NCBI GenBank assembly: GCA_015179025.1
Contig: WHUX01000010.1
Location: forward strand, 1-64,000
Reading direction: 5' to 3'
Source: Terfezia claveryi
Taxonomy: Eukaryota > Ascomycota > Pezizomycetes > Pezizales > Pezizaceae
Length of the DNA: 64,000 bases
The stretch's first letter is position 1, and each line of letters opens with the position of its first letter. This document shows, piece after piece, positions 26,842-57,009 of the stretch. Under the pieces are notes generated by a model that did no database searches, was not told where the DNA came from, and saw nothing but the letters and a program-made list of their open reading frames with translations. The position numbers were made by a program, and so were the translations under genes.

Positions 26842-27977
26842 GCCTCTCAAGAGGTTGTCGAAAGATGGTTTTTTTGGGGTTGGATGGATATACGGAGGGC
26901 GTGTTGGGGGAGGACATGGAGGGGGGAACTGTAAATGTATGTGTCTTGGTTATTTCCCCTTCTTCAATGGTTGCATTCTGGTACGTGTGAGTGGGATCTA
27001 TTGGGAGGTAATCTCTGTCTGGAGGCATGGTGGGCTTTTTTTTTTTTTTTTTTTTTTGGTAGGCGGATTTATGGAAACATAAAGCATAATGTTTTGTCTT
27101 TTTTTCTTTATTTTTTTTATTTTTTTTTATTTTTTTGTATATCTCTCCCACTTCTTGTCGTTACTATTTATTTTTGGAAAGCTTTTGATAGTTCTGTATA
27201 TGTTTTGCAAGGTGGGGGCGGGGAAATGCATGGAAGTTCCGTGAGCTCTCTCTCACCTAGATTCCTGGTAGAGAAAAGGATGCTATATGAAGGCCAAATA
27301 TAAAAAAATATTCATTCAAGCTTAATTGAAAAAGAAACATGAATCATGGAATCTGATATGTATACTGTATATAAAGTAGTACCGGTAATTTATATACGTA
27401 TATTTAATCGAAACCCCTTGTTAATTCATCTTTCGTTGGACAGACATATTACAATATGACGCTCATGTTGATCTATCACCAACTTCTAATTAGTGAGCCT
27501 TTATAATGTATCGTAGTGTTGAAAACCAAACCAAATGCACCATATTTGCAAATGTACATACAGTACATATTTTTTCTACCAATACAATAACTACTAGGTA
27601 CCTATAACCCCCTCCCCCTCCCCCCAACTAACAGCTCGTATATTTTCAGACTAAGTACCTGTACCCTTATCAGATTCTTTTCGTATGAGTTAATGTTGGG
27701 ATTAACTAGAACTAGTCTGGTTGCAGGCTAGAAAGCCATGCATAAACCAAATATAGTAACCGAATAATGTGCAAACTAGTAGTTAGTCTGGTTGGCACAA
27801 CACCCTCTACAGAACATTCAGTCGAACAACTAAAAGAATCAGATAACTAAAAGGGGCACGACAACGTGACTTGAAACCCCACTACTTATAGGCGAAGATC
27901 TCAAAGAAGCATGTGATGCAGTACAGTAGGGGCATTCTTTTCCTAACTATACTACATAATATGGCTTGGGATAAGAC

Positions 27978-28012
<35 letters not shown>

Positions 28013-28430
28013 CCTTCTTTCTTGCAGATGATTTTGCTCTTTTGCTTTCTTTCAAGCTAGCTTTCATTCTCTGTATAACTAGTACACATCCACGGGGTTT
28101 GACCAACACTGTTTTCTTTCTGCCGAATATTGGGCCCCCCATCGAGATCCGAACCACATCAAAGGCTTTTTTTTTTTTTGATCTGGATCTGCCTGCTGGG
28201 TTGTTATGGGTTATATATTTTCTTCTCTAGTAACATATATATGCACAATCCTAAGATGAGTTGTGCAGTTTTTGTTCCTCCCTTCCATGTGTACACTATC
28301 AGAATGATTATGCAGTTTATTAAAAAACCCGAGGCCCGTATGTCTAGCTTCTGATCCCATTCTAGCATCCTGCTCACTTCCTCATCCCACCCACTCACTC
28401 TTCCCACCTCCTCACAACCTCGTCAAAATA
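26842..28430. other. Intergenic, poly-T tracts and micro-insertions
   Basis: The 3' flank of the long gene. Long T runs at about 27038-27058 and 27983-28011, a C-rich tract at about 27610, and one TACCGGTA (27380). Two copies of the TAGTCTGGTTG motif sit 70 bp apart (27714, 27784). No gene seen. Confidence 0.5.
27714..27798 (+). repeat. Two TAGTCTGGTTG micro-insertion copies
   Basis: Copy one, TAGTCTGGTTGCA (27714-27726), is flanked by imperfect repeats (AACTAGAAC and GGCTAGAAA, 6 of 9 matching). Copy two, TAGTCTGGTTGGCAC (27784-27798), has the full core but no visible flanking duplication. Both are in the same orientation. Confidence 0.5.
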
Positions 28431-28436
28431 TCCTAT

Positions 28437-28900
28437 ACAACCTCCTCCGTCTTCGCCTTTCCCCTCCCCAGATCCGGGCTAAGGGTCTTACCCTCCTCGA
28501 GATTAGCATCCACAGCCTTATCAGATAAATCCTTACCGCATGCTCCCCCAAGCCCATTAAACTCCAACAACGTCCCTACATTCCTAATCGCCGCAATCCG
28601 ATTCGTGATGCCCAACCTCTCAATATCTGGCACACAGGTCCCTAATGACAAACTCACGCCCAAATTCGCCGAGGGAACAAGCCCCAATGACACCCACCAG
28701 CGGCGACAGCTCCATTAGATAGAATATTTCCCGTAGAGATTCAGCACCATAACAACTTCGTAGTACTCCGAGTTCTAGAATAACTTGTAATACCATACTA
28801 TCCACAATCTGCTCTACTAAATTCACTTTGGAGTAGAGGCCCTTGCCTGCCAGGCGGCATCGGTGGTAGTGAGGGCCCACCACTCCTCCAACTCCTCCGG
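28437..28900 (-). pseudogene. Relic of a homoisocitrate/isopropylmalate-type dehydrogenase
   Basis: Minus-strand frames read VNLVEQIVDSMV, then NLYG, SNGAVAAGG, SLGLVPSANLG, ITNRIAAIRNVGTLLEF, and DANLEEGKTLSPDLG ending in KAKTEEVV and a stop at about 28436. This is the C-terminal half of the beta-decarboxylating dehydrogenase family (isocitrate, isopropylmalate, homoisocitrate). The ending (EGK..SPDLG..KTEEVV) favours homoisocitrate dehydrogenase of fungal lysine synthesis (LYS12-like), but this is a judgement from motifs. At least two frameshifts and one stop break it, and the N-terminal half is absent. A micro-insertion lies at its upstream edge. Confidence 0.65.
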
Positions 28901-28925
28901 CGTGCCAACCAGACTACCTCCGGCG
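28894..28925 (-). repeat. Micro-insertion with perfect 9-bp duplication CCTCCGGCG
   Basis: TGCCAACCAGACTA (28903-28916, reverse complement of TAGTCTGGTTGGCA) is bracketed by CCTCCGGCG at 28894-28902 and 28917-28925. The exact 9-bp direct repeat is what a transposition target-site duplication looks like. Confidence 0.75.
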
Positions 28926-29172
28926 GCGGCGGGGATATCCCATGTATAGAGGGGGAGGAGGTGGTGATGCACCGGTCTTGTGTTATTTGGATTAATCTAC
29001 GCTCCATTCTATTCCAACGTATCCCTTGTTACCAAGCCCATGAAATCTGTAACCACCCAAACCATTATAAGGAGAATTTAGAAGCATCCATCAAGAGAAG
29101 TAACCTCCGCTGTAGCCGACGTCACTTTCCCCGAGACCTATCACACCCATCCACCATCGCCAAACAGCTCTC

Positions 29173-29936
29173 CTAAGCCATCGCCAGCGGTGCCGGCACC
29201 CCCTTCTCTCCCACAACCTCCTCCGAGGCCTCCGGACCTATGGTCGGCCTCACACTCCTCGACTTACTCCTATAGTCCTTGATCGCAGACTTGATCGCAT
29301 CTTCTGCAAGCATACTACAATGCACTACCCCTCCCCCAGCCAACATTAGCTCCCACACCTCCTTCCAACAGCTAGAGTGATATATCTTACATTTCACCGG
29401 CGGTAAGCACAATTCCCTTGCAATCTCCGTATTCCTAATCTTCTCCGCCTCCTCAATCCTCATCCCCCTCACCATCTCCGTCAAGTAGCTACTACTTGCA
29501 ATCGCAGACCCGCACCCAAACGTCTTGAATCTCACATCAATGATTTCATTTGTGTTTGGGTCGACGCGGATTTGGAGTTTCATTACATCCCCGCCTGCAC
29601 AGAACTATTTAGTCAAGGTTCCATACACATATCTATTAGGTAAAACAGTTGCGGATTGAACTTACAAGCCGGCGCACCAACTAACCCCGTTCCAACGTCG
29701 ACATCTGTCTTTGGCAGAGACCCGACATTGCGAGGGTTCGAGTAGTGATCGAGAAGTGCTGCTAGAGGGAAACATGTTAGCTGTTTTTAAAAATATATAA
29801 CTTCATGCTCTATTTCATCCCTCTGCAGGAAATACTACGTATCTTTCTCATGGTAATTTCTCCTCAAAACGGGCTGCGTCGCTCTAGAGACAACATTCTT
29901 GATCAGGAGGCCTGTGGTGATGAAACGTCCGAACAT
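29173..29936 (-). CDS. ISU1: Mitochondrial iron-sulfur cluster scaffold ISU1/IscU
   Basis: IscU-type scaffold on which Nfs1-supplied sulfur and iron assemble [2Fe-2S] clusters in mitochondria. Proposed exons, 5' to 3' on the minus strand: 29936 to about 29845, about 29757-29666, 29594-29391 and 29324-29173. Exon 1 gives an Arg-rich presequence (MFGRFITTGLLIKNVV ... RRNYHEK). The core follows: LDHYSNPRNVGSLPKTDVDV, GAPACGDV, FKTFGCGSAIASSS, ELCLPPVKLHCSMLAEDA. All three cluster Cys and the Asp of ACGD are present. The last intron (66 nt, no stop, multiple of three) hides in an open frame, but splicing restores PPVKLHCS. The exon 1/2 junction lacks a normal donor (see findings). The C-terminus is slightly longer than usual. 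Confidence 0.92.
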
Positions 29937-30397
29937 TTGTTTTGACTGTATGGGAAGGTAAGGGCGAGAAGTTATCAGATCCGTGATTGATAAATGAGAT
30001 AAGGATATCAGGATTATTAGCCTGGCGGGATTTCTCAGCGGTAGGGACTTGGCATGGGATATCAGGATAATGCAGATGACTACAACCTTATGTAAGGTTT
30101 CACAGGGCGACCGGAAGTGTATTCGACAAGACGGTGCTATATTAGTCTGGTTGCCAACCAGACTAGTGCTATATGTGAGCGTACGATATATACTATCGGT
30201 GTTTGGGCAAACCTAGCACCCAGTGATCACGTTTTGTCCTAGCGGTTACACTCTCCAACACTATATTGCTGTCTGTACAGTATCGTGCCTTAACAAGTCT
30301 ATGGTATAAATAACAGAACCCTGACGCTTTAGTGAACTCCTTCCTGACAGAAACTCTAGTAAGGAAAACGAAATCACAATATATTTCAATACCCTAC
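29937..30397. other. Intergenic between asparaginase 3' end and ISU1 5' end
   Basis: Contains presumed promoter of ISU1 and 3' flank of the asparaginase gene, plus the palindromic micro-insertion at 30134-30174. No further gene seen. Confidence 0.5.
30134..30174. repeat. Palindromic micro-insertion with perfect 9-bp duplication GTGCTATAT
   Basis: A 23-bp insert (30143-30165) is an 11-bp inverted repeat, TAGTCTGGTTG and CAACCAGACTA, around a single C. GTGCTATAT stands directly on both sides (30134-30142 and 30166-30174). It looks like the two ends of an inverted-repeat element joined with everything between lost. Confidence 0.8.
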
Positions 30398-32510
30398 TTA
30401 CGCCCCTGCCAGCTCCCAGCAAATTGCCTTCCTCCTCCTCCTCTCCTCCATAAGTCCACTAGCTCCTGATCCCGAGCTCCCTGGGCGTGATAGACTAACT
30501 TTGACTCCATTTCCTCCCACTTCGCCCTCTGCCGGCGTGACACACCCACTTCCTGCCTCTAGTCTTCCCCTTAAGATAGTAGCCAACTCAATCTCTTCCG
30601 TATGTAAATGCGCTCCAGATTCCCTGAGCAACTTGACATTGTCGAGCTTGCCTGCGTCTGCAGCAAGATAGAGTGGTGTATGGCCGTCATGGTTTCGTAA
30701 ATGGACGGAGGCACCCTGGGAGAGAAACTCCCTCAGGATTGCAAGAGACGGAGAGGTCGCCGCAATGTGCTGTTTGAGGGGTGTAAATGTTAATATAATG
30801 TCACCCTAATAAATTTACAGAGAAGGAATAGTATATGAAGAGCACGGGTATCAGGTGAGGCGCTAAGAATGCTCCTCTATGAAAGCGAAGACCACGCGGA
30901 AAAGAGAAAATTTGATCTCACCAGTGGCGTAAACCCCGCATAATCAAACTCGTTCAAAAGCCACCCCTCTCCTTCGGCCTTTGCCTGTTTCAATGCCTCC
31001 CTCACGCCTATTTCATCTCCTTTCTTGATTGCATAAGCGAGTACACTGAGGGCGGCTTGTTTCGGTCCCAAGGCCTGCTGCTGGGAGAATTTCAGAAGCT
31101 GAGGTGGATGTGCGAAAGACATGAGCGTTTGTTCTGTTATCTCGCCTCTAAGGGAGCGGGACATCATGGACCGGATCTCCTCGACACTAAGGTTCGGGTC
31201 GGCTAGGAGGCAGGAGAGCTTCGTTAAAGCCGCTGGAGATTTTGTCAGTAACATTTAATCCTACACATGTCGTTAGAGTGAAGATGTTACCCTCAGTCGT
31301 CATATCCATTCCAAATACCACTCCAGTCCTCGCCAATGCAGTCCCCGCAGCGTACAACGGACACACACTCCCGGTCATGCATTGAGTCACATTTACGATC
31401 ACAATCCCGTCTTCTACTCCCTGTCTGAGCACCTCCAACAACCTACCATCTTCCGGTGCATTTCCGCTCCCAAATGTCTCCAACACCAACCCTCGTAGGC
31501 CCTCCAGCTTCAAGACTCCCTCAATCATCTCCGGCAATATTCCAGGGAATATTCTCAAACACGCTACATGTGCCGTTCCCGGAGGGTATTTCGAGACATG
31601 GAACGGTGTCAGGGTAGAAGGGCGGGTGATCAAGTTCCAATTTATGGTGATATTAATCCCCACAGTCGCCAATGGAGGATGATTTGGTGAGCTGAACGCA
31701 TTGAATGCCACAGAATTACTCTTCGTAACACGATTCCCACGGAACAATTTAAAGCCGAAATATAAGCAAACCTCTGGTATCATAAAATGACCTGCAATAA
31801 TCAAACTTCCGAGTAAATTATCCGTGGCATCGCTTTGCAGCTCCGTCATTGGGGCCTGGCTTCCAGTAAATATAATTGCCTTCCCTAATGAATCAATCAT
31901 AAAGCCAAGCGCGGATGCAGTATAGGCAAGCGAATCCGTGCCGTGAAGCACCACAAATGCATCAAACAGCTGATAGTTCCGTTCTATGGAGCGAGCAATC
32001 TCACCCCAACCTTTGGCATTGATAGAGGAGGAATCCAAGAGTGGATCGAATTCAAGCACGGAGAAACGTACGTGCCGGTTATATGTGGAGAGTGGCGTCC
32101 GCAAAGATGGGAGATAGGTAAGGGCTTCGGCGTCTAGGGCATCAGCGTAACATGGCATTGGGGGTTGGTTGGAGTGGTCATTGAAGGATGGGCGTGGCGA
32201 GAGAAGATTCATGAAGTTCCGCTCCTATCACACGTTAGCTATGGATTAAAAGGCTGGCCGTTGCATAATGGGGGATACCGGAACGTATCCATTCACCCCT
32301 CGCTTCATACATATTGTCCCTCCTGATGCGCACCAGAACAATCAGTCGATTGCACTCTGACAGATACACGTCTCCATACATACCTGTAGCAATGACCAAC
32401 ACCCGCGACTCTGGAGCACCTAGCGTGACTGCATCTGGGACCAAACCTAGCTCCGGTACATTGGAGGGAGCTGGTGAAGGTGGAGAATCTGGCGTCGTCG
32501 CGCCTGGCAT
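30398..32510 (-). CDS. Cytosolic-type L-asparaginase with C-terminal ankyrin repeats
   Basis: Hydrolyses asparagine to aspartate and ammonia. Proposed exons on the minus strand: 32510-32384, 32322-32279, 32278-32225 as intron, 32224-31291, 31232-30922 and 30769-30398. Splicing restores the N-terminal catalytic motif ATGGTICM (only half is in exon 1). The second motif is LHGTDSLAYTASALGF, then FTGSQAPM and GSGNAP. After the catalytic domain come ankyrin-like helices (DYAGFTPLHIAATSPSL; GASVHLRNHDGHTPLYLAAD). This layout matches the type I asparaginase/60 kDa lysophospholipase-like family. The start could instead be an ATG at 32543. The last intron (152 nt) is longer than the others. Confidence 0.9.
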
Positions 32511-34693
32511 CTTGAATTTGTTGTTTAGCACAAGACTGTACAATCGTGAGTAGTCTGGTTGATTCGAGTAAAGTGGCCTATGACCTCAAGAAAACGCCCT
32601 GAATTTAACCACACTATCCTGAATTGTCCGGATTGACGACCGCCGAAGAGCAATTATCAGAACCGTGCTGGTATCCAGATCTGCAAAATCACCGATGCGG
32701 AATGTGTCGGAGTTAGTCTGGTTATGTCGGAGTCACAACAGCCGAGATAAGCTTTATAACGGCCGAACCTAATAAGTATAGAACGAGAATACAGCGGACG
32801 GGCGCTGGAAGGAAAGCCAGCGTAAGGAAATCTGGATCTCCCAATCATATAGCTGATCTCAAACCAGAGTATCCGATCCTCAGATTTTGCAGTTTCGTCC
32901 TTCTAACTCCACGGCTTTTGAGTCCGCCCTCGAGCAGGCTTTTTCGATTTGTCACAGTCATATCCTGTCGCTTGAAGACTATGCTTGCCGTTGCAGGAAT
33001 CCTGTCAGGAGCTCAGTGATTCAGGCTTTCCTAAGGAGCCCAGTGATAGAGTTAGGTTTCAACGAATGAAAAACAGGTGTCTCACTGGGATGAGGAGATC
33101 AACCTGCATCACCAACCTGCGAAGAGATGCATCGCATGCATCGGGACGGAGCGATGGGGTAATGGAAACGAGGAAGCGCATCTAGATTCCTTTCACGCTC
33201 TCCGATGTGCAACGGCGTGGAGATCAGATAGCAGGGCTACCGGTAGTCTCGTTGACCGGTACCTAACACGGAAAAGTGTGTGGCCAACTTCCTGTTGCAG
33301 CAACCATGCAGACTGGTACCTGCATCCAACTATCCACTCGAATCACAAACACCACCCAAGAGTAATGATCGCAGATTTCTGGAAAAATCTCGCGGATACA
33401 TGTAAGTTAATTATACAGTTACCGGTAATTAACTTACCCCGGGCTGCGGCTGACCTACATTACATAGCCTCTGAACGGACCAGACTACCGGTACCTCGGT
33501 AGAACGTGTTGCACAACCTTGGGCTCCTGCAGTCTCGAAAACCTACTGTGCAGCCAAATTTGGTGTGCCAGCTTGTCCTCGATGGGTAAGTGGTCTCGGA
33601 CCAGTTATGCTAGAGGCAGCAAAAACTGAGGGTAACTCCAAACTCGATATGACATGCACACTTTTAATGGTCACCAACAAAGGAGGATGCCCTTGTGGAG
33701 CTTCTCGAAGTCCTCCCATCAGACTGGGTTTGATTACCCAAAAAGCAAACATTAATAGCAGGGATCTTCTGAAGTTGAATCCTACTAGCGCTTTGCATGA
33801 ACTTTGGATCTAACGTTACAGAACTGTTTACACCTGTACATAGGCGCGCGGGGGAGGCGGACTAATCTGCCTCACCCTTCAACCCACTCGGGCTTCCGGG
33901 TGGTGCTCTGAAGGGCGGTTCATACGCGTACAGAGTCTTTTTTAATATTTTCTTTTCTTAAAAAAAAAAAATTTGGGATGATAGCAGAAGGTAGGCGACT
34001 GTAAAGGCTTTGTTGAGATGAATTCCGTTACTATAGACCCTTTCCCCGTTAGTATAGTATCGTGATAGCCATGGTCTTGTTCTTCGGCAATGTCTCGGTA
34101 ATGAGCTTGGGCTCAGAATACTTTGCAATGGATGAGTCCACTTGTTGATGGCCTGGCCTAAGAGGTTAATGGTCTCCAAGCTGGTCGCGTCTCAGGCCAA
34201 GTGTCTCATTCCAGAGAAAACACGTTATGTATACTGGCCAACTTTAGTATACCTTAACCTATGCTTTGTAAATTGTCTTGTTAGGACTGTACTTTTCATG
34301 GCTGTCCTGTTGATCTTTTGGGAGCGTGGGCTCTGGGACAAATAACTCAGAACTGTTAAACACGTCTTGATCTCAATGCATAGTTTGGCCAAAAATTAAG
34401 TTAGTGGAGCTGAGAACTGAGTATGAAGTAGCGAAAAGCTTTGGTAGTTCCTTAGTGGTGGGCTATAACATCTGGAATTGTTGACAGCAATGGATTTGGC
34501 CCTGCTTGATAATATAGATGACCATACTTACATTGGGAAAAAAAAAAAAATGTCGCTATATGGAAGGCAAATGCACTTGGCCACAGAGTCCGGATATTAT
34601 TACAGTGAGATTTGCAGCTACTTGCCTTGTTAAGACACTTATCCCAGATTTTACCAGAATAAAAACATTTCCACCCTCACAAAGTCACAAAAT
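32511..34693. other. Intergenic, no gene recognised
   Basis: Holds the asparaginase promoter side, a micro-insertion with duplication at 32705-32733 and a TAGTCTGGTT copy without clear duplication at 32551. Three TACCGGTA palindromes (33238, 33420, 33486) and an A-run (about 33960) are also present. Short open frames between 33077 and 34345 show no codon or domain signal that I would trust. Confidence 0.45.
32705..32733 (+). repeat. Micro-insertion with perfect 9-bp duplication TGTCGGAGT
   Basis: TAGTCTGGTTA (32714-32724) is bracketed by TGTCGGAGT at 32705-32713 and 32725-32733. The insert is only 11 bp, the shortest of the family with a perfect duplication. Confidence 0.75.
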
Positions 34694-35323
34694 ATGTCTG
34701 AAAAAGGCAAAATCCCAGCCGTACAGTCTATACCACTTCCTATGATTCGCGAATCAGTAGGGGAGAAAGAGGGTGTAGAGCCTACCCCCCACCGCCCTCC
34801 AGCTCCAGACAATACAGCCGAGAGTAATGATTTTCAACGGACTGGAAGTCTTACTGTAGCATCAGTTGGGAGGAATACTCTCGTAGAGACTACTGGCCTA
34901 GAAAGAGAGGTATCATCAGCAGAGATAGAAACAAATCGAGACTCTAAACAGGCTCATCCAGTAATTCTAGGTCGGGCAGCTGATGATGAAAAGGAAACAG
35001 CAGTACCCACCTGGCCTAGCCCGCCGCTACGTCCACGGGCACCCATTAATACTTACATTAATACACAATCCATGCAGGGATCACAAGTCGTTAGGGCTAA
35101 AGAAGTGGTTCAAGCTCACTCCTTGACAATTACTGGTGTTGACAAGTCAAAAAAGGAGGACGGTGTGTTCGTAAACATCCCACTTGATCTAGGTGAGATA
35201 AAAAAAGAAGGAGGACAGGAGACAGGGGGGAAAGACCACGACAAGGAGCGATGGAGGTTTGCATGTGGCTTCGAGTTGCTTGAGAGATGGTGGAAAAGGA
35301 TGTTTGCGTTTGATTCTAGATGA
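34694..35323 (+). CDS. Hypothetical 209-residue protein
   Basis: A single open frame from an ATG (MSEKGKIPAVQSIPLPM) to a stop. The first two thirds are polar, Ser/Thr/Pro/Glu-rich and probably disordered. The C-terminal 50 residues are denser (VNIPLDLGEIKKE ... RWRFACGFELLERWWKRMF). It starts after a long noncoding stretch. I recognise no family. Length and composition favour a real gene, but it could be a long chance frame or the terminal exon of something larger. Confidence 0.45.
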   Translation: MSEKGKIPAVQSIPLPMIRESVGEKEGVEPTPHRPPAPDNTAESNDFQRTGSLTVASVGRNTLVETTGLEREVSSAEIETNRDSKQAHPVILGRAADDEKETAVPTWPSPPLRPRAPINTYINTQSMQGSQVVRAKEVVQAHSLTITGVDKSKKEDGVFVNIPLDLGEIKKEGGQETGGKDHDKERWRFACGFELLERWWKRMFAFDSR

Positions 35324-36253
35324 TATTACCAGGCAGCAAGGTTCTTAGTGGAGTAGCTTGGCATTTGCCTCCTCATATGTACTTGAAAGCATCTTAAGAT
35401 AAATGAAATCCATAAACTCACCGGGGCTAGGGACTCACCCAATTTCATGGGACTGGTAAGCTCTAGCCTTCTTGGGAAGTCAGATCCAAATTTGACCAAC
35501 GTTGCCTTTTACAGTATTTACCAAAGTGTTGTAATGGCCGCTTCGGCCCGCTCCTTCGGCATCCCCGAGGGGGTTCAGATAGGGCTATCGGGCATACGGC
35601 CATTTGGGATAAACTCCTATGATTGGACATTTAATTTGTGCAGTGGTGTCCCAAGAGGCATTTGTATTTGATCAAGTGACCCTCAGTTTCTGAATTGCTT
35701 TTATTCAACGAAAGAGCTTCTGCCCAGCGCCACAATACTCATCACAATTGTTGTCTCACTGCAGATGGCGACATGTTACGAAATCGCAGCTCCACCCCCA
35801 CGTGCCCAGCCGTCGTCCTACCCCTCATGGCATTGAGACAACGTCTTTAGACCCCTGCTTCGCTTCTTTTTACCAACCACCGAACCTCGTCCCCACCTGC
35901 CATGTGGAACCGTGGCGTAGAAAAACGCACGGGTTTCACAAGATGCTAACCACCCAGCAGAAAAGTTGCTTTCACTATCCCTACCTCTGCAGCGATCTTT
36001 GCTGGTTAGGTACAGGGAGAACAGCCTTTGCGGGTCGCTAGTGCAAGAGAGATGATGAAAGAACTAAGAACTCGGGAGGCATTGTGGGGCCGAATGAAAA
36101 GTAAATAAACTCAGGATGCCGCTTCGTGTTATTGGAGAGACTTGACGAACTTTATTTTAACCCTCACGGCAACACGTTCTCCTGAAACCTCACGCAGAGT
36201 CTAATTCTGGGAGCCTGTCACTGCCCAAGTAACGCAGTTGCAGATCGTCTACG
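35324..36253. other. Intergenic, promoter side of the transporter
   Basis: No gene or repeat recognised. The last 100-150 bp before 36254 are the likely promoter and 5' leader of the SLC35F-type gene. Confidence 0.45.
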
Positions 36254-38757: not shown

Positions 38758-39134
38758 TTTTAATAGCGCTAGGTGTCAGTTGGTTGGAATAAAGCTTTGT
38801 GTATATTTAAAGTGGGTTTGACGTCTCCTTATGTACTTTTGGGCGGCCTCGTTGTGGTCCAAGTAGGGTAGGTACTTTAAGGGCCAAGGTGACAGCAAGG
38901 GAAACCAGACTACCAAGGAAAGCAAGATGTGAGTTCCAAGTAACAGTTCGCTAAGTGAAACTTTTCACGCAGCACCTGATGGTTACCCTGAACTTATTAG
39001 TCCGTAGACTGTTCGTCCTCATCTCACTTTTTTTTTTTTTTTTTGACTTCTAATCATTTGCCTTAAGTACAGCAATACTCACAAACCTACTTCATTCGAA
39101 ACAGTTCTTCGAGCAACAGTTCTAAAATGCAAAA

Positions 39135-46972: not shown

Positions 46973-48182
46973 TGAATTTCCATTCTTGAGGCTGTGGGAA
47001 TTCGGATTTCGCAGCGAGGGGCGGTGGATTGGGGCCGAAACGAAAATAGAGTTCAGGGATTCGCGCAGTCGTGTTGCTGCTCACGTGCTTGAAATTGGGT
47101 GCAGCTTGGTTTCAGGGTAAGCGAACAGAAATAGTTTCAACCTTCTATCTACAGTAAGAAAAACAATTTGACTGGGTATCCTTACTTTCTCGGTCTGTTA
47201 TCGCAGGATTCAGGTTCAAGACACTGGCTGTCAGTATTTCTATGAAATTTATATCTGTGATATGTACCAGTCTGGTTGGTTGGCACAAAAAGATTAAAAC
47301 TTCCTTCACCAACATAATAATACTACAACATTGGTATTAAATTATATACCACTAATCTTACATCCGCATCACCTATCAAGAGAAGTAAATCTCAGTCCAG
47401 ACCTTGCTATCTCCCAAATGCCACCGTAAATCCACGACTTACATTCTCAATCGCAACTAGCATTACTTGGAAGGGCGGTATATGGGGGTTCCCCCCCCCC
47501 ACCCCGCCCCCGGAGCAGTATTACAAGGATTTAGTAGCTTTGTTTATGTATGACATCTACTACGTTCATCATCCACCGTAGGATGTCGGGCACTTAGTAG
47601 CTGATCGAGGCAGGTCATTATGTCAAAACACATCTACAATATATTTTAGATTATATAACATGCGCAGCAGGCATTGAAAAACAACCTTCCACTTTGTCGT
47701 ATTAGTAGATCTTATTTGCCGCCGCCGATATTATATATAACCTATGGGTATTCAGGATATCATAAGTTAACCCTCACTTGCCTCAGGGTAACTTCTTAAT
47801 CGACTTTGCTCAGGGTAACCGTGAATCAAAAAACTATTTTAATTAAGCGAGTGCAGACCTACGTGTGGGGAATGGTAGATGCTTAATTGGGCTCATCGAA
47901 AGATACAACAAAGGAAGTCGGCCCGCCTAGTCGGCCAAGCTATCGGTTACACTCACCTCGGAGTGTCACGTTAATAAATAGAAAGTCAACCTATGATAGA
48001 GCAGGTTCAGGGTGAAGGGTAGGATAATTACGAGCACAGAGTAATTCCAACCAGACTAAATAGCTCCACCATCTGGCCTCCTACCTCGTCGAGAGGAAAA
48101 ATTTTTTCTTCTCATTCGCAAGACAGAAAACTATCGAAAACCACATAAAACGCCCCCCTTCACTAACCCACCCAACCAATAT
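46973..48182. other. Intergenic with two micro-insertion-like motifs
   Basis: Promoter side of APN1 and 3' flank of the DUF726 gene. CAGTCTGGTTGGTTGGCAC (about 47269) and CCAACCAGACTA (about 48048) lie here without clear flanking duplications. A C10 run is at about 47491-47500, and two TCAGGGTAAC motifs at 47783 and 47810. No gene seen. Confidence 0.5.
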
Positions 48183-50891
48183 TTACTTCTGCACCCTCCT
48201 CCTCCTCCTCTCCATCAACTCCCTCTCAATCCGCTCAACAACTTCGTCAATCCCTTCCTCTGTCTCCGTCCAATCACCGATCTTCTTCGGGCCCCTGGTA
48301 CTCTCACTTCCCTCGGGCTGTGCCGGAATTCTCTCATCCCAGTCCATAAGCGGATGGCAATCAACAATCCTCAATGATTTCTCATCGTCAACCACCAAAT
48401 CCCTCAAACTATCCTCAGTCCTCTTCCGATCCTCCGCAGTTCGCTGTTCTGTCTCCCGCTGCATCGCTTTCCGCATAGCTCTATACGTATCTTCTCTATC
48501 TATATCTTGTTTAGCCTTCTTAGCTGTATTTCGCTCCTCATTCTCTATTTCCTCGCGCTCAACAGCTTCCATATCCTTCCTCGTCTTCTCCCTTAACTTC
48601 TCTAATATTACTCCTTCCTTGACCACCTCTTCATCCTCCAAACCTCCTAGCCTACCCAACCCACACTCCCTCAACACCACTCCCATAACCTCCCCATACC
48701 TCGAATGCCCCTCCACAATCGCCTCCTTCTTCATAGCCTTATCCTCCCCCAGCTGTACATTCTCAATCCCCCACACACCTTCCACCCCCTGTAACCCAGC
48801 AATGCCCATATTGAGCGTACTCCCCCTCTCCAAAAATCCCAGCACCCAATCGCTCCCACTATATCCATTAACCACCCTCCCACTCGCCGCCGCACGGATC
48901 ATAACCCACTCGCTTCTATTCCCACTCTGCACCGGCGCACCCAAGAAGTACACATCCTGTACTACCCCCCATGCACCCCTCTGTGCCAGGCCCCGCATAG
49001 CATAATACACTACTCTCGCGCCTAAGCCGAACCCAATTAAATTTACTGGCCGCTCGCCCTGGACGCGGTTACATAGCACATCAGCTAGCACCCTTCCCGC
49101 CTTCTCTGCCCTGTGTCTAGCGACGGAATACGGGTTATCGATGACCCTAGCTGCTTTGACGAGTACGAGGGGCCAGAGGGCGAGGTACAGCGTAGCGAGA
49201 ACAGTGCGTTTGACAATCTCGTATTGCACATAGCGCCAAGTATACGATTCGAGCAAGGTATCCAAGCTCGTACCAATATCTATAAGCGCAGACGGATCGA
49301 ACCGTAAGGCATATAGAGATGAGGATCTAGGTGAAAGACACCGCCAAGGGAGGGTAATATCTTCTGGCTTCGTAAGCCACCCGGAGATTCCAATCGTCAC
49401 AAGCAATTTTTTATCCGGTTCCGCATTATTATTCGTTGCAATCTGGTCAAATGTAGTCGCCGGTGCTCGATGCGGATTCGGCCTCTGCTTCTGTGAGTTG
49501 ATTGTCGATTCTGACTGCAATGGGATAAACGCAAAATCCTCCACTTCACTCGCATACCTCCCCACCATCTCCCCCGTCATCTTCCCCCCATATGCACCAA
49601 ACAGCGCTCCTACAATCGCTCCACTCCCAGCTACAGCACCAAGATACCCCGCCGCTACTGTTGCCCCAAGTCCAATTCCTGACAGTAACCCACCTATGCC
49701 AGCCGCGACGAATGGCGCGGCTAGACCCCCAGTGAGGCCTATCACTGCTGCTCCAGCGACAGATGCTAGTCCTACTTTCCAACGTTTAGCAATCTTGTTT
49801 GCTTCGATTGCTTTTTGGGATTCGGCTGTGGCGGAGACGTGCGCGGCGTTGATGAGGGTGGCTGCGGTGGTGGATTCTAGTGCGAGGAGGGAAGATGGGG
49901 GGAGGGAGAGAGAGCTGGAAAGGAAGTGGAGGAGGACTCTGGAACGGGCGTCGTAATGTTCTAGGGATATGAGGAGGAGCAGGAGGGAATGTAGTATCTT
50001 CTCTCTGGTTTCGAATGGGAGGTTGAGGAGTAGGGTAGGTGGGTCAATAGGGGGGTATAGCGACTGCAGGAGTTTAAGATCTGCTGCCTCGAATTTATTG
50101 AGTCTTACCTCCCCATCTTCTGGAACTGCTAGTGCTGGTGCTGTTGTAGGCAGTGGGCTCCTGTTTGCCCCTCTGGAGGAAGTGGAGGAGTCCCTGGAAT
50201 TCACAACCTCAAAAACCCTCCTCTGCAACCGCTCCGCCCATTTATCAAAATCCTCAAACGCCGAGGCCCGTAGCCGCTTCTGCGAACGTTTGCGGTATTC
50301 CGTCGCTGCGGTTTTGCTTGTTCGTAGTTTCTGCTTTGTGGAGGCCACACTTCCGCTAGCTTGGAATGTATTTAATTGTCTTGTATCTCTCTGCTTAACA
50401 CCCCCTGGCGCTGGAGGTGGAGGGGAGTCTCTGGGTCTCTCGGCTATTGAATCGCCCTTGTCCCAGACGATCAGGTCGTCTTCTTCTTCTGTGGGGGATG
50501 GAGATGCAACAAATTCCCCAGTCTTACTTGGTACTAGTGTTTCTTCAGCGGAATTGGGTATAGAAGTAGACCCTCTCTTCTCGCTCAAGCTCAAGCTCGC
50601 CTGCTTCTGCGCCTGTGCCGGCACCGGGGCAGGGGGAATAACACAGTTAGGCATACAATCCCATGTCTTCCTGAAATTCCCCCTCATGACCTCACATATT
50701 GTGGACACCAACAGCGCTAGATCTGCGCGGTGGGAAGGGTTCGGCAGAAGGACATTGAGTGGGGGAATATCTGAGATGGAAGGGGATTCTAGAGGAGGTT
50801 GGGGGGGTTGAGCGTATGGACTTGCGGTGGTGGTGGCTCCGTGAAATGATGCTGGTGGGTCGTTTAAGATGTCGAAGGGGCTGTGGGACAT
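48183..50891 (-). CDS. DUF726/Mil1-TMCO4-type membrane alpha/beta-hydrolase
   Basis: Single exon, 902 residues. A disordered N-terminus (1-230) is followed by a helical domain. A Gly/Ala-rich hydrophobic stretch (about 395-460: GAAVIGLTGGLAAPFVAAGI ...) probably forms two or more membrane helices. The hydrolase-like domain follows: LLVTIGISGWLTKPEDITLP, WRYVQYEIVKRTVLATLYLA, NLIGFGLGARVVYYAM, YFLGAPVQ and NGYSGSDWVLGFL. The family (yeast Mil1, human TMCO4) usually has a Ser at the nucleophile elbow, where this protein has Gly. A Glu/Lys/Arg-rich C-terminal coil ends it. Biochemical role is unproven. Confidence 0.88.
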   Translation of the reverse strand: MSHSPFDILNDPPASFHGATTTASPYAQPPQPPLESPSISDIPPLNVLLPNPSHRADLALLVSTICEVMRGNFRKTWDCMPNCVIPPAPVPAQAQKQASLSLSEKRGSTSIPNSAEETLVPSKTGEFVASPSPTEEEDDLIVWDKGDSIAERPRDSPPPPAPGGVKQRDTRQLNTFQASGSVASTKQKLRTSKTAATEYRKRSQKRLRASAFEDFDKWAERLQRRVFEVVNSRDSSTSSRGANRSPLPTTAPALAVPEDGEVRLNKFEAADLKLLQSLYPPIDPPTLLLNLPFETREKILHSLLLLLISLEHYDARSRVLLHFLSSSLSLPPSSLLALESTTAATLINAAHVSATAESQKAIEANKIAKRWKVGLASVAGAAVIGLTGGLAAPFVAAGIGGLLSGIGLGATVAAGYLGAVAGSGAIVGALFGAYGGKMTGEMVGRYASEVEDFAFIPLQSESTINSQKQRPNPHRAPATTFDQIATNNNAEPDKKLLVTIGISGWLTKPEDITLPWRCLSPRSSSLYALRFDPSALIDIGTSLDTLLESYTWRYVQYEIVKRTVLATLYLALWPLVLVKAARVIDNPYSVARHRAEKAGRVLADVLCNRVQGERPVNLIGFGLGARVVYYAMRGLAQRGAWGVVQDVYFLGAPVQSGNRSEWVMIRAAASGRVVNGYSGSDWVLGFLERGSTLNMGIAGLQGVEGVWGIENVQLGEDKAMKKEAIVEGHSRYGEVMGVVLRECGLGRLGGLEDEEVVKEGVILEKLREKTRKDMEAVEREEIENEERNTAKKAKQDIDREDTYRAMRKAMQRETEQRTAEDRKRTEDSLRDLVVDDEKSLRIVDCHPLMDWDERIPAQPEGSESTRGPKKIGDWTETEEGIDEVVERIERELMERRRRRVQK

Positions 50892-51664
50892 TTTCGTGGG
50901 ATTGTAGATGTAGCTATTGCGTTAAGGATATTCGCACGAAGTGAAGCCTACTGGGGTGCTTATGCCTACGGCTGCGGGCCTGTGGCTCGCTCCGGAACAC
51001 TGTATTCAGGGACTTGAGCAGCGCCAGGCAAGGGTATATCCTCCACATAGAGCTGTAGCGTTGCCAGTGCACGAATCTGAGTCTCTACTCCGCATGCGTG
51101 CTGTAATATTAGCCACCTAAGCTTACCTCCTCACATCGCACCCCATACCCGCTCATGTGCTCAGGCATCCTTGTGATAAGCGGGCTCATGCATGGATATC
51201 ATGAGCCTCATGTCCATGTCTGTGGTGCCGGGGATCGGGACCAATGCATGAGATCAGAAGGTTTGTCATCGAGGGATGTAATGTACAGTGCTTGCCTGGA
51301 GTTGTGGCGTGGAGAATTCCGTACCAACAATATATGTAGTATCTGTAGGCGAGAATACAACAAGCCACCATCGTCCTCGTGGCTTCATAAACTTACATGG
51401 AAAAGGAGATAAACGAAATAAGAGTTAAGTATACATTAAAAGGCATTTGATGATAAATCAGTCCCCACAGGTATGAAGCACTAGGGATCGGGGGTTGGCA
51501 AAGCACCGAAAACAAATCCAAAGTGAAACGCCGTATCCCAAGTCTCGCCCATGAGGCTCCTCAGCCAAAAGGACCAAGGTAAATAATCTTTTTGCTGCCG
51601 TTCCCCCAACCGGAGGTAATATACCACACAATAGACCACCACACTCAGTGCATGGTCGATATTA
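50892..51664. other. Intergenic
   Basis: Promoter side of the DUF726 gene and 3' flank of the BLOC1S1 homologue. Short frames on both strands show no conserved signal. Confidence 0.45.
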
Positions 51665-52279
51665 TTAAGCAGTCGAAGGCACTGGCTGTGTGTCTTCTTG
51701 CATGAGCCGCTCCTCATCATATACGATGTTCATGGTCTCCTCCATGACGAGGAGTTCGTGCTCAATCATTTCTGCCCAGTTTTGGATGTCTCCAATTTCC
51801 TAAATTGGGGTTAGCACATGTTCCACAGCGTTATGCGAACATACAGTTCCAAATGTGCGTAGGGGGCTTAGTGTGATCCCGGGGTGACTCTGGAAAGGGG
51901 GTTTCCTACCTTGAGTTTACTCCTTGCCCCCTCCGCCATGCCACTCCACTGTCTGGTAGTCTTACTCAACGCTGCGGTTCTATTCTTCAGCGTGCGCGTC
52001 TGCGTTTCCAGGCTTTGTGCGTTCTGGTGGATTGTGGTGATGCGGTCGCGCAGGTCTGCGTCGATTTGAGAGCCGAAAGTGGTCAGGCTTGTGTGCAGCT
52101 GCTTGCGGGATTCCTCTGTGGGAGGGTGTGGTTTAGTTTGTCATCCAATGGAAAACAATCCCTCCCAATATCTTGCGAGATAAAGTTTAGAGAGAAAAGA
52201 CAGGGAGGGGGTGCGAACCTGCACGCTTAAGTCTCTCGTTCCTGGCAACGCGGTCTTCCTTAATTAGCCTCGATGCCAT
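51665..52279 (-). CDS. BLOC1S1: BLOC1S1/GCN5L1 homologue (BLOC-1 subunit 1)
   Basis: Small coiled-coil subunit of the BLOC-1 complex of endosomal trafficking. Exons 52279-52219, 52115-51910, 51799-51665; 133 residues, close to the 120-150 of the family. It starts MASRLIKEDRVARNERLKRA. The coil reads SLTTFGSQIDADLRDRI, then TLKNRTAALSKTTRQWSGMA and LKEIGDIQNWAEMIEHELL, matching the family end LKEIGDVENWAK.IE. All junctions are GT..AG and in phase. The exons are too short to stand out individually as open frames, so the gene is easily missed. Ends in MQEDTQPVPSTA. Confidence 0.88.
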
Positions 52280-55049
52280 GTCTGCTGGTGCTTCCGCTGC
52301 GAGTGCTGTCGTGTGATGATTTGTATGGATGGATTGTGGAGGTGTGGGGGTACGTGGTGAGCAGCTATAAGCCAGATGCACCGTTGTAACTCAGGATGAG
52401 AGATGAGCTTGTAATGGATGCTTTCTGATGGGCGAACAACTCAGAGGGAACGGATATCGACCCCAGTTAAATAAGTTAAGCAATTAGTCCCTTTCACTAT
52501 CCATAAATCCACCTATGCTCCCACCCTTCTGCTCAATTGCTCTCGCGGGAAAAACGAGGGGACAGAGCTCGATTTCGAGCTCAAGCTCAATTCTGTCTGA
52601 TACTTTGTCTGCACACCCTCCTCCTCCCCGTTCGACCAAAGAGCAATTGACACGACTCTCGCCCGCCCGCCTCGCCCTAATCTATCCCTCAGAGATCAAC
52701 AGACCCACCCAGTGCAGCTTCCAGTTTGCCTTTCTCCAAAGAGCAAGGATGAAATAGAGCGAGCAAGCGCAATTGCAAACCGGGGCGCTCAAAAGGAGAG
52801 AGCGATTGGCCAGCTACTGAAGGGAATTGGCTTTAGCGGGAGCTGCGTGAGTTGAAGGTGGTGATGCGTTGGCAACTACTTCCTGTACTCGGAACATTTT
52901 AGTTTTAATATCTCGTGTCGTGTTTGGTTTTGGGGGTAAAATTTTTGGGGAGGGGGGGGGTGAGATATGTGCTAGGCTAAGGTACCAAGTACCGATGATG
53001 CACCAGGATATGCTGTGGCGGTACTTACTTACACCACGCCTATGACGTGCAGGGAGGAATGAGCCCGGGAAAATGCACAGCAAAGCTCGCAGGGGCAGAG
53101 GGATATTACTGAAGTCGCGGGGTATGCCGTGCTGGGGGGATATTGGTGGTGGTGGTGGTGGAAAGAGGGGGGGGGTGCTATGCTTGGAGCTCTGAGCTGA
53201 CGTTCTCCGCCTCCAGTGCTTAGCTTCATCACCGGAGATAGCTCCAAGCTAAGTAGAGAGAGTCATCAGGTCCAGCGTGACGTCCAGGTGTCCCCACTGC
53301 CATCGTGACGGCGGTTCCAGCGGATTTGACTTTTTTTTTTTTTTTTTTTCAATTTTCCTCCATTTCCCGGCGCCTCTCTCTCTCAAAATAGGCCCGGATG
53401 CGACAAATTTTCAAGCGCTCTAGAGTTTCCCGAAACAGAGAGCACGGCAGCTTCGACTCACGAACCATGTGTCTGGCAGCTGCGGCATTCGATAGTTTGC
53501 AGGACGTAAGTATGAAGGAACAGATAAGATATCTCAGGCAGTGCGTGGATGGATATCATTCGACGGAGGACGACCGAAGTGCAAGGAAGAACATGAGCAG
53601 CAGCGCCAGCGCAACGTTTGTTCTCCGCATGGAACAAACATGAAGATTGCCTCAGCCAACGCCACAGAAGCGGTAAGCCACAGCGATTGGAGATCACATG
53701 TATCCACGTGAGTGCCCTGCACATGTTGTAAATTTTTTTTTGCTTTTTTCTTTTCCTTTTTAATTTAGAGAATACTCTTCCTGTAAGTAATTCGTGAAAA
53801 CATTCGTAACGCCGGCTAAGTATGTCTGTACTACGGCATGGGAAAAACCTGCAATCTTAATTGTGCTACTAGCAAAGATCCGGGCCCGCCCCAGTAAGTT
53901 GTGATGGCAGTACAAATCAAGATACAGACCCAGTTAGCCGTAGGAAGTGGAGAAGCATATGGACATTGAGTGGTATCCCGAGGTGAGTGGGGTGAGTTGA
54001 GGGTACAGTACTTCTTCTAAGTACTGGGTAAAATAAATAGTAAATAGAAGTAAGTCATACCAATGGCATAGGACCAATGGCATAGGTACAACTTCTTTTT
54101 CCAGACCAATCCACTTACAGCTGATGCACACGGGCACCTGCAGCCCTGCGGTAGTAGATGAACAGTCTCTCTGTTTAGATCTCCATGACCGGTAGTTTCA
54201 GACGCCTGCACGTTTTCACTTTTTCTTTAGGTATGTATGTACCGGTATATATATATTAAGGGAGCCTGCATGGCCTGATTCTCAACGCAAACAGCGGCCG
54301 GGCGAGCAGGTGAGGGGCCCGGTACCGTGGTCCAAAGTGTTGCCCATCTCCCAGATGTTGCAGAAAAGAGCCTCTATATTTGCATCCACGTATAAATGCA
54401 TAACCTCCTGGCATGCATAGGTCGTGCTGGAAACTGGTGATAGTATTATACCTCTGGCCGGTCCCAAACGATTAGACCTACATAGTTGGATGGGCCTGCC
54501 TAGTCTGGGCCTTCCAGAGTGCTTGGGTTTTGTCCCCGGATCTCAGTCGTGTCAACAACGTCCGTAGGGTTTGCTATGTAGAAGGCCCTTCAGTAGGTGT
54601 ACGTAGTATAGCTTCATAGCTTCCCAGTGCAGCGTCCATATCTGTGGCCAAATGTGGCCAACCGTGTTTCTCCCACCCAATACTACTTAGTCATTGCACT
54701 TGGGCAGCCTCGGCATCGTCATCATCGAAGTACTTCTCATCGCTTATCCCACTTTATCGCAAGACTTCAACCACGCAAAAAAATCTAACTAGGCAGTATC
54801 AGAGCATAAACAGTGTAACCTTACATTTACCGTACAGCTTTGTGTTCGTGCCCCGAAAACATGTAGCTAGGCCGCCTACCTAGAAAAAGCGCAGCAGTCG
54901 AAACTCAACCCTCTCGGCCTGTAGTCTGGTTGGCACCTCGGCCTGCCCAAACCTATACAACTACAACGCAGCATACCGCTTCGCCAAATTCACAACAGCA
55001 CACCGGCCGGCTCTTCACCTCGAGGCCTTACAAGCAATCAACTCAAAAA
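52280..55049. other. Long intergenic region without recognised genes
   Basis: 2.8 kb without a frame that I would support. Features: GGTGGTGGTGG tract (about 53145), T run (about 53332-53350), a TACCGGTA (54240), a probable micro-insertion TAGTCT with 8/9-matching flanks (54492-54515) and one with a perfect duplication (54913-54945). An 81-codon frame at 53398 and an 89-codon one on the minus strand at 53083 are unconvincing. Confidence 0.4.
54913..54945 (+). repeat. Micro-insertion with perfect 9-bp duplication CTCGGCCTG
   Basis: TAGTCTGGTTGGCAC (54922-54936) is bracketed by CTCGGCCTG at 54913-54921 and 54937-54945. It lies about 110 bp upstream of the start codon at 55050, probably in the promoter or 5' leader. 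Confidence 0.8.
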
Positions 55050-55772
55050 ATGGCTGATTCAATCCTTATCATTCTTCTTGACAGAACTGCCGATGAAGAC
55101 GCCGAAGCTCTCATAGAGCTTTACAGCCGCCTGATCAAGTACCTCAGCAGAGCGTGCCGTGTTCACGACGTCCGGAGCTACAAGCAAACTCTCGAAGCGC
55201 TATCATACGAAAGTTTATGGCGAGCAGTCATCGTCATGGAGCCCATAGTCGTCGGAACCCGATACCAACTCATATCAGACCGACTCATCCACTATGCCAG
55301 AAGCGGTGGAACTGTCATTTTCGAAGGACGATTTGGCCGTCTCCTCAGACCGCAAGACCTCAATGCATACTTTCGAGATGTCTGGTGTATCGGGTGGAGA
55401 TATGGTGCTGTGAGTGAAGCGTGGGAATATACACTCAATCCAGCCAGCGATTTGAGGAGGACAATTCCAGACCAGCACCCAGACATGCCACGGTATTTCC
55501 AATTTTCAGGTCTACAGCTGGCGAATGTGGCAATCCAAGAGTCAGTTTATCTTCCCAAGTGGCCCCTGACCACTGAAATAGAGCGGAGGGGACCGAAAAT
55601 GGTGGGTGTGGAGTGCATGATAATGGAGCACGACTCGGAAAGGTGGCAGAAACTGAGTCCTATTGCGTTTGCAAAATATGAACGGGGATGGATAGGCTGG
55701 TCAGGGGATATTGCCCCGTGTGGCTATAAGCCTTGGACGATTGAGGTCCTTGGGGCGATGTGTGGATTGTGA
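55050..55772 (+). CDS. Hypothetical 240-residue fungal protein
   Basis: Single exon. The frame is open upstream to a TTG, but I take the first good ATG (AACTCAAAAAATGGCTGAT context). It has a beta-strand start (MADSILIILLDRTADEDAEA), then LSYESLWRAVIVMEPIVV, ARSGGTVIFEGRFGRLL and a Trp-rich middle (VWCIGWRYG). The pattern of hydrophobic strands ending in small residues resembles a Rossmann-like (ThuA or glutamine-amidotransferase-like) fold, but no catalytic signature is visible, so function is left open. Confidence 0.65.
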   Translation: MADSILIILLDRTADEDAEALIELYSRLIKYLSRACRVHDVRSYKQTLEALSYESLWRAVIVMEPIVVGTRYQLISDRLIHYARSGGTVIFEGRFGRLLRPQDLNAYFRDVWCIGWRYGAVSEAWEYTLNPASDLRRTIPDQHPDMPRYFQFSGLQLANVAIQESVYLPKWPLTTEIERRGPKMVGVECMIMEHDSERWQKLSPIAFAKYERGWIGWSGDIAPCGYKPWTIEVLGAMCGL

Positions 55773-57009
55773 AGCCCCGTCCCATTGGTGGTCTTTCCGC
55801 TTTGTTATGTTAGCGGCTTGTATCAAGATAGAACAGTATTGTAGCAGCATTGAGGTTGGAGGCGTTAATTGGATCTGATTCACGACGTTTGTGATTGTGA
55901 TGGATACCTGTTTGTTTTTCTCTAATGGATATATATCAGGATGGAATGTCAGCAAAAGACAATCAAACAGGGGGTATCCAGGGCTGCAGTGTGCTTGCGG
56001 GGCAAGCTTATAATATCCTACTTGATTGAAGCTGTGAAAATCTATTGTCGCAAAACCAAAACGCTTTCAGGAGTTACTCGCTGCGTGTAGGCGTGTTGAA
56101 CACCCGCAAAGGAAATCTGAGCACCGACGCGAGAGAGACAATCTGAAGCACGGATAGATTGAGCGTCCATCCCTCCACAGTCCATGATCTCGAATAAAAT
56201 AACAATAATAATAAAAGTGACTGGAAGAATCAACCTCCGGTCATTGCCGTAGAGCAGACTACCGGTCATTAGATTTTTCTCTTTGAAAAAATAAAAAAAG
56301 AAGTGTGCCTGCAACCCCAGTCTCACTCCACACATTTCAACCACCAGCAAAAGCCAACATAGATGCTTCTATATATTAAACCAAGGATCCCTAACAGCAT
56401 CCGCAGCAGAGAGGCCGCTCCCTATTATATGTAACGTACAAGGTACAAAATCCAACGCCTCCTGGTCACCGCTAAAAAGGTTTAGGTAAGAAGTAACTGT
56501 AAGAAGCATCTCTGCACTAGCAAACATGTCCATCTCATTTTGTGTATCATCCCAACTGTGAAGGGTAAAATCCAACCTTCCCCTCCGTCCCAGCGTGTCT
56601 CAAGGTCTATAATCCCAACATTCCCGTAATTGTGTTTCCTTCAGCAAGTACGTTTCTGGAGTGGCTGAGGTTCCGAGAGGAGTGTGGTGCAGCATCGTCC
56701 TACTTTTTCACAAAACGAGAGATTGAAGATTGATTACATTCCAAGGCTTGTGCTTCTAAATCGTCGGCGAATGGAAGAATGAGTTGATTACATATGTACA
56801 GGTAACATTGTGTAGTTTAACGAGTGTTTGTGTGTGGTGAAGAATGGAAATTATAAATAGGAATAGATATTTATTTGTGGTGCTGAGGCTGTAAGGATAT
56901 AGGAATTCGACCTAACTTCAAGTGGTTTAAATTACCTGGTACAATCATACAGGGACTAGACTGCTGGTCATACCGGTACTGTACTTCAGCTGTCACAGCA
57001 ACCCACCCA
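55773..57009. other. Intergenic, promoter of GatA
   Basis: Contains the variant micro-insertion at 56237-56270 and a TACCGGTA at 56971, 39 bp before the GatA start. A 68-codon minus-strand frame (56369-56575) has no recognised family. Confidence 0.4.
56237..56270 (-). repeat. Variant micro-insertion with perfect 9-bp duplication CCGGTCATT
   Basis: GCCGTAGAGCAGACTA (56246-56261) is bracketed by CCGGTCATT at 56237-56245 and 56262-56270. Only the outer end, TAGTCTG on the opposite strand, matches the main family; the inner part differs. Confidence 0.65.

Follow-up and report, generated by a model that had tools for sequence, protein, structure and literature searches.

A Family of Short, Mostly One-Ended Insertions between 9-bp Duplications in the Genome of Terfezia claveryi

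Introduction

The first 64 kb of contig WHUX01000010.1 (C2 in what follows) of the Terfezia claveryi genome, referred to here as the window, contain a family of short insertions that share one end, TAGTCTGG. The original prediction placed five of these insertions (starting at 28903, 30143, 32714, 54922, and 56246) between perfect 9-bp direct repeats, and all five are exact as written:

28894..28925, minus strand: one-ended 14-bp insert TAGTCTGGTTGGCA (28903-28916) between exact 9-bp duplications CCTCCGGCG
30134..30174, no strand assigned: two-ended palindromic 23-bp insert TAGTCTGGTTGCCAACCAGACTA (30143-30165) between exact 9-bp duplications GTGCTATAT
32705..32733, plus strand: one-ended 11-bp insert TAGTCTGGTTA (32714-32724) between exact copies of TGTCGGAGT
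54913..54945, plus strand: one-ended 15-bp insert TAGTCTGGTTGGCAC (54922-54936) between exact copies of CTCGGCCTG
56237..56270, minus strand: variant 16-bp insert TAGTCTGCTCTACGGC (56246-56261) between exact copies of CCGGTCATT

We describe here the abundance, duplications, and structure of this family genome-wide and in a larger contiguous sample, and weigh how the insertions may have arisen.

Methodology

The genome comprises 72.6 Mb in 794 contigs, and genome-wide motif counts were controlled by counting the reversed motif. Our unselected sample is C2:1-264000, that is, the window and the contiguous 200 kb that follow it (L009-L028). Loci L001-L008 lie on contig C1, and stretches L050-L069 were picked for the presence of the 24-mer TAGTCTGGTTGGCACAACACCCTC, which biases them toward long inserts. 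This last set is the source of 16 of the 45 catalogued elements, all of which have exact duplications, and for which the TAGTCTGG start was imposed by the search itself. Approximately 300 kb of sequence was read beyond the window's 64 kb, all from one genome.

Results and Discussion

Abundance of the Motif

The 13-mer TAGTCTGGTTGGC has 3,431 exact copies genome-wide (1,692 + 1,739), compared to 0 + 0 for the reversed control. The window itself holds four exact copies of the 14-mer TAGTCTGGTTGGCA (27784, 28903 minus, 30152 minus, and 54922). Allowing up to three mismatches to this 14-mer gives 11 matches in the window, with a shuffle mean of 5.57 and with 3 of 100 shuffles reaching 11; the loose matches are weak on their own, and it is the exact 14-mers that carry the case. 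The long arm, 24-mer TAGTCTGGTTGGCACAACACCCTC, has 334 genome copies and a second subfamily, TAGTCTGGCTTGCACTAGCCCCTC, has 161 (control 0 in both cases), and one 29-mer has 34 exact copies, the flanks having been read for a minority of them. The relatives TAGTCTCATGCCAA, TAGTCTCGTGC, and TAGTCTGCTCTACGGC share only their first bases and differ in their inner sequence, and each has an exact duplication at one place. A chance origin of the family was rejected, given the zero count of the control and a duplication excess far above the null. Extrapolating from the ratio of 26 exact elements to 25 13-mers in the 264 kb, we estimate some 3,500 scars with intact duplications genome-wide.

Duplications at the Tip

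In the 264-kb sample, an exact 9-bp repeat lies directly at the T of TAGTCTGG, with its second copy 10-83 bp on, in 28 of 77 cases, compared to 0.58% of random places; these are oriented matches, such that two palindromic elements are counted twice. When the same 77 sites are sorted by mismatch, taking the minimum over insert lengths of 9-60 bp, 26 duplications are exact (0.43 expected), 6 have one mismatch (1.34 expected), and 9 have two (7.98 expected). A scan that makes no use of the motif leads to the same sequence: 1,561 exact 9-bp repeat pairs are separated by 8-100 bp, and TAGTCT is the most frequent start of the enclosed sequence, with 31 occurrences compared to 18 for the next. The longest duplication at the 62 copies of TAGTCTGGTT in this sample is 9 bp in 15 cases, 10 bp in 4, at least 16 bp in 4, 8 bp in 2, 7 bp in 4, 6 bp in 3, and 5 bp in 9, with none of at least 5 bp in 21. 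Beyond this sample, 4 of 15 sites at the C1 loci have exact duplications and 3 have one mismatch, and exact duplications are found at 18 of 36 sites in the picked stretches L050-L069. The predicted excess of 9-bp flanking repeats is thus not confined to the 264-kb sample and is seen on further contigs as well. We considered and rejected a tandem-repeat artefact, as the duplications differ in sequence and their lengths peak at 9. No clear target motif emerged from the 45 duplications examined for a consensus.

Insert Length, Ends, and Hairpin Tails

The 45 catalogued inserts have one fixed end, with TAGTCTGG at one duplication, and a variable opposite end, and they fall into two main length classes: 17 are 10-16 bp, none 17-21 bp, 2 are 22-23 bp, none 24-27 bp, 22 are 28-37 bp, and 4 are longer. 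The 25 of these that come from the unselected 264 kb are similarly distributed, with 13 at 10-16 bp, 1 at 23 bp, 8 at 28-36 bp, and 3 at 49-58 bp. The overall range, 10-58 bp, is therefore wider than the 11-23 bp originally given for the family. No inserts of 4-9 bp or of 17-22 bp with a TAGT... prefix occur in the 264 kb, and those of 2 bp (1 of 15) and 3 bp (4 of 65) are near chance. Among the exact-duplication elements of this sample, 24 of 26 are one-ended and 2 are two-ended, an 83-bp nested one included. Across the genome, 131 places carry two-ended fusions whose inner gap is 0-30 bp (none in the control), and arm lengths vary in the 50 that were listed. The tail junctions lack microhomology, with the next base matching in 13 of 45.

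The tails of some of the longer inserts pair back on themselves (CCTCC-ACA-GGAGG, CTCC-ACA-GGAG, CCTC-GTA-GAGG, CTCC-GTA-GGAG, TCTC-GTA-GAGA, and CCTCC-TGTT-GGAGG). Of the 22 inserts that measure 27-40 bp, 6 end in a hairpin with a stem of at least 4 bp and a loop of 3-4 bases, compared to a shuffle mean of 0.86, and none of 5,000 shuffles reached 6. The 17 sequences read with the 24-mer TAGTCTGGTTGGCACAACACCCTC, some of which are without a duplication, continue with CACA in 5 cases, CTGT in 3, GTAG in 2, TACA in 1, CATA in 2, and otherwise in 4. As CACA and CTGT, like GTAG and TACA, are both readings of the same loops, they point to one palindrome seen from either end, and we infer that the source was a palindrome in which two arms flank approximately 3 bases. 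A perfect 32-bp palindrome, TAGTCTCATGCCAAGATCTTGGCATGAGACTA, is present as a single copy at C2:198066-198097, with 8 of 9 duplication bases matching. We also note a 14-bp part of one TAGTCTCATGCCAAGATCTTGGCATGAGACTA arm with an exact duplication elsewhere, at C2:80348.

Empty Sites, Nesting, and Genomic Placement

The paralogous segments L068 (C2:289730-289950) and L069 (C2:739830-740050) provide sites with and without inserts. L069 carries a precise 22-bp insert, TAGTCTGGTTGCACTACCCCTC, together with a second copy of the 9-bp sequence GGTATACTA, both of which are missing from L068. Conversely, L068 carries a 10-11-bp insert, TAGTCTGGTT(G), with a near-9-bp duplication, and L069 has neither the insert nor the duplication. 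Sites without the insert, which the original prediction sought in sister strains, therefore exist within this genome, with the comparison being one between paralogues. Together with the duplication excess, these presence/absence sites support the predicted mobile-element origin of a family with 9-bp duplications. In addition, as judged from match coordinates alone, a diverged paralogue on C357 is without the stretch holding the 23-bp palindrome (30143) and an 87-bp repeat.

One 15-bp insert, at C2:207411, is flanked by a duplication of its own and lies within a 34-bp insert, and such nesting indicates activity over time. The same 9-bp target has also been reused by repeated insertion into one exact site: the target AAGATTCCC is present three times around two opposite-orientation inserts on C46 (L054), AACAAAAAT at L061 recurs exactly after 28 and 90 bp and with one mismatch at 66, and CGTCAGATC is present three times within C2:196174-196285. 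Within the 264 kb, TAGTCTGGCTTGCACTAGCCCCTCCTTAA and TAGTCTGGCTTG each occur as two identical inserts between different duplications. L050 (C90:7387-7558) and L051 (C103:100757-100928) agree in their inserts and in the adjacent flanks, and the contigs C90 and C103 possibly overlap or represent haplotypes.

The copies are unevenly placed. None of the 62 copies of TAGTCTGGTT lies in an open reading frame (ORF) of at least 200 codons, such ORFs making up 19.7% of the 264 kb. Of the gaps between successive copies, 46% are <300 bp, compared to 6.8% if uniform. None of the 62 falls within window positions 1-24000, which agrees with the reported absence of the family from the repeat compartment; three later 12-kb blocks are equally empty, however, so that this absence is suggestive only.

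Other Members and Neighbors in the Window

The remaining family sites in the window are as follows:

27713..27723, plus strand: end motif TAGTCTGGTTG, duplication not found
27784..27810, plus strand: long arm TAGTCTGGTTGGCACAACACCCTC followed by TAC, 9-bp duplication not found
32551..32561, plus strand: end motif TAGTCTGGTTG, duplication not found
38903..38912, minus strand: end motif TAGTCTGGTT, 9-bp duplication not found
47269..47278, plus strand: AGTCTGGTTG, a motif match with the TAGTCTGG end changed to CAGTCTGG
48048..48058, minus strand: end motif TAGTCTGGTTG, duplication not found

The core sites 27713, 27784, 32551, 38903, and 48047 lack a 9-bp repeat even when one mismatch is allowed, and a search of the window for inserts derived from tRNA or Rfam families found none. 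An 87-bp repeat at 30174-30260, with at least 39 similar genome copies (90-97%), adjoins the 23-bp palindromic insert and is possibly a miniature inverted-repeat transposable element (MITE). The asparaginase gene at 31187-32212 (minus strand) has its best named relative in Kalaharituber pfeilii, with 85% identity across 92% of the query; other named relatives include Rhizina, Trichophaea, Tuber, and Morchella, and four metagenome proteins score higher (85-94% identity). These matches point to a host among the Pezizales, probably close to the desert truffles. In the low-GC part of the window, 10580-11056 is a tandem array with a 24-bp period and 13 registered copies.

Search for the Driver

Mutator-like elements (MULEs) duplicate 8-10, usually 9, bp of their target, and it is the length of the duplication that suggests a link between them and this family. 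The genome contains 21 MULE-domain matches, and none of the 21 corresponding 3-kb loci is bounded by TAGTCTGG, with most element ends lying beyond the stretches read. Two related MULEs, L029 (C61) and L030 (C89), have exact 9-bp duplications (TTGTTGAGG and TGCTACCTA) outside termini that are CGGACTGACTC and not TAGTCTGG, from which it follows that MULEs with a 9-bp duplication have moved in this genome. At L034, an open 541-amino-acid frame corresponds to a MULE protein with a SWIM domain, and TAGTCTGGTTGGAGAG is present in both long terminal inverted repeat (TIR) arms of L034 (612 and 3018) and of L045 (135 and 2671), where it lies within the TIR and points outward. As the motif is also dense in the background, we treat this MULE family as a source of the insertions only as a lead. 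MULE genes are thus present in the genome, and the tie to MULEs drawn in the original prediction is one of duplication length only, which makes a MULE a candidate agent.

Pairs of the form TAGTCT...AGACTA with a 9-bp duplication, at most 20 kb apart, enclose 23, 70, and 83 bp where the duplication is exact, and 32, 34, and 235 bp where it has one mismatch. Over this distance, the sequence read yielded no long element that combines both ends with an exact duplication, and the predicted long TAGTCTGG-ended element encoding a transposase was likewise not found in it. The repeat that lies 223 bp beyond one single end (33487, minus strand) is probably due to chance.

Proposed Mechanism and Alternatives

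We tentatively favor, with a confidence that falls short of even, an origin of these insertions as single-end integration scars, in which a TIR tip is joined to the target by a transposase that acts in trans with a 9-bp stagger. Here, a transposase with MULE-type chemistry would join one TIR at its exact tip, TAGTCT, with the second end usually left unjoined. The donor would probably be a TIR-only unit of two 22-25-bp arms, back to back with approximately 3 bases between them and capable of forming a hairpin. It would then be trimmed or opened, either near the hairpin apex, giving 28-37 bp, or back to its last 10-16 bp, and the remnant would be end-joined to the opposite, filled-in side of the staggered cut. 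The product would be a single TIR arm, variable in length and enclosed by two copies of the target-site duplication, with both arms rarely kept, as in the two-ended forms; the class of transposase, the hairpin donor, and the end-joining step are what we infer here. This is closer to the reduced unit moved in trans of the original prediction than to its other suggestion, and to it we add the one-ended state of most copies. A more specific form, in which a eukaryotic system has the one-ended product as its normal outcome, integrating a TIR-only hairpin with a 9-bp stagger and opening it near the apex to leave thousands of 10-37-bp scars, and in which scars attract further insertions into the same target, appears unlikely to us.

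Several observations weigh against single-end integration. No transposase gene between TAGTCTGG ends was found in the sequence read. Complete palindromes are nearly absent, with 3 centers in one subfamily (control 4) and 1 in the other (control 0), and some of the forms counted as two-ended consist of a pair of neighboring single insertions that face opposite ways (for example, C1:16783-16827). In a looser hairpin test (stem of at least 3 bp), 9 of 22 inserts score, with a null mean of 4.7 and with 65 of 2,000 simulations reaching 9, and neighboring genomic bases used as tails give 6 of 22. Of the 62 copies of TAGTCTGGTT, 22 have no duplication within 2 mismatches, which the model does not account for. 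Finally, among 57 distinct TAGTCTGGTT without an exact duplication, drawn from the window, L001-L028, and L050-L069, 10 retain 7-8 duplication bases on the tail side (0.35 expected), compared to 5 on the opposite side, a number that point mutation would be expected to give. It is therefore likely that the duplications have been nibbled to some extent, as happens in excision repair, and the idea that duplications are all-or-none was dropped, as tail-side shortened duplications of 7-8 bp do occur. These shortened duplications lower our confidence in both single-end integration and a dedicated one-ended system, and raise it in excision.

Excision is indeed the strongest rival and a close one, which we regard as possible, if somewhat more doubtful than the reading we favor. 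Here, a low-copy, very mobile cut-and-paste transposon would have its second strand cut well inside the TIR, as in the Drosophila P element, where the second-strand cut lies inside the TIR with a stagger of approximately 17 nt; one side would keep its long 3' overhang and the other would be trimmed flush to the duplication, and with one scar per jump, scars would far outnumber residents. This accounts for the mostly intact duplications, the dominance of one end, the 16-bp ceiling of the short class, the tail-side shortening, and the abundance of scars where the sequence read has no long resident element. However, free trimming of an overhang should yield 4-9 bp remnants, of which none are seen, and the 28-37 bp class with hairpin tails is left unaccounted for. 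Independent retention of the ends at the 2:24 ratio observed predicts, moreover, approximately 70 bare duplications in 264 kb, whereas we count 9 bare 9-bp tandem duplications with 9-11 matching bases (6 of which match exactly 9), with the background unsubtracted; as a comparison, a unit of 8 gives 12 (8-10 matching bases), and a unit of 10 gives 2 (10-12). The absence of 4-9 bp inserts and the scarcity of bare duplications disfavor ordinary footprints, such that the excised-element footprints of the original prediction would fit only as excision with a long inner stagger, and poorly as independently trimmed ends. Footprints in the literature are less clean than the present scars, and the data point in both directions: in yeast, excision of the MULE Muta1 from a donor that lacks duplications leaves, on occasion, as much as 13 bp of the TIR, but is precise in about 90% of revertants when the donor has duplications (PMC5225508), and exactly two duplications were left in only 8 of 94 rice excisions (PMC4423477).

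The two other explanations consider the inserts as units or as ruins. That the 10-16 and 28-37 bp sequences are themselves micro-units mobile in trans, which are copied between sites and whose second end is poorly defined, would agree with the recurrence of identical inserts between different duplications (TAGTCTGGCTTGCACTAGCCCCTCCTTAA and TAGTCTGGCTTG) and with the 34 exact copies of the 29-mer. Such recurrence is equally expected, however, if cutting halts at a preferred place, the tails differ among copies with the same 24 bp, and 10-bp units would need recognition at both ends, and we thus consider this improbable. We give still less credence to the possibility that the inserts are remnants of intact 51-54-bp palindromic MITEs, inserted two-ended and later severed at the palindrome through hairpin-cleaving nucleases of the host, with the loss of one arm. 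This would accommodate the hairpin tails, both loop readings, and the two-ended variants with shortened arms, but later breakage has no reason to stop exactly at the border of one 9-bp duplication, and complete palindromes are, as noted above, almost absent.

Comparison to Known Systems

The family resembles MULEs and their MITEs in its 9-bp target duplication, its absence from long ORFs in the 264 kb, and the presence of MULE genes in the same genome. It differs in that the scars are without paired long TIRs, a transposase gene, or internal sequence, and in that most are one-ended and 10-37 bp long; inverted repeats at both ends, by which a MULE would be recognized, are seen in only 2 of 26 elements. 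MITEs are nonautonomous, high-copy elements of fixed length with TIRs at both ends, of which the present family shares the high copy number, but neither the two ends nor the fixed length. Excision footprints of P, MULE, and other elements likewise consist of short TIR remnants between two duplication copies; here, in contrast, 4-9 bp remnants are missing, part of a second, 28-37 bp class ends in a hairpin, and bare duplications are few. The one-ended transposition of the Tn3 family shares one fixed inverted-repeat end, one variable end, and a target duplication, but is bacterial and replicative, carries kilobases of donor DNA, and makes a 5-bp duplication. The Foldback-like element Galileo of Drosophila is reported in 170 copies that range from nearly complete to solo TIRs, and is similar in having copies cut down to TIRs alone, single TIRs included (PMC3573991); here, in contrast, one-ended 10-37 bp inserts with 9-bp duplications prevail, and no complete element was seen in the sequence read. 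Our literature search, which left subscription journals mostly outside its reach, found no close precedent for such a family, and the papers listed for the end sequence itself were from unrelated fields.

Conclusions

If single-end integration is correct, this genome would preserve thousands of joinings between a transposase-bound end and its target at base resolution, mostly in a one-ended state that is rarely visible. As each scar retains the tip, the cut-back point, and both target copies, the coupling of strand transfer, second-end capture, and end joining could then be studied in a eukaryote. Should the scars instead derive from excision, they would form an unusually rich fossil record of a transposon leaving scars, so far with no resident copy. 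More broadly, transposon products can be numerous among insertions too short for the length cut-offs commonly applied to repeats.

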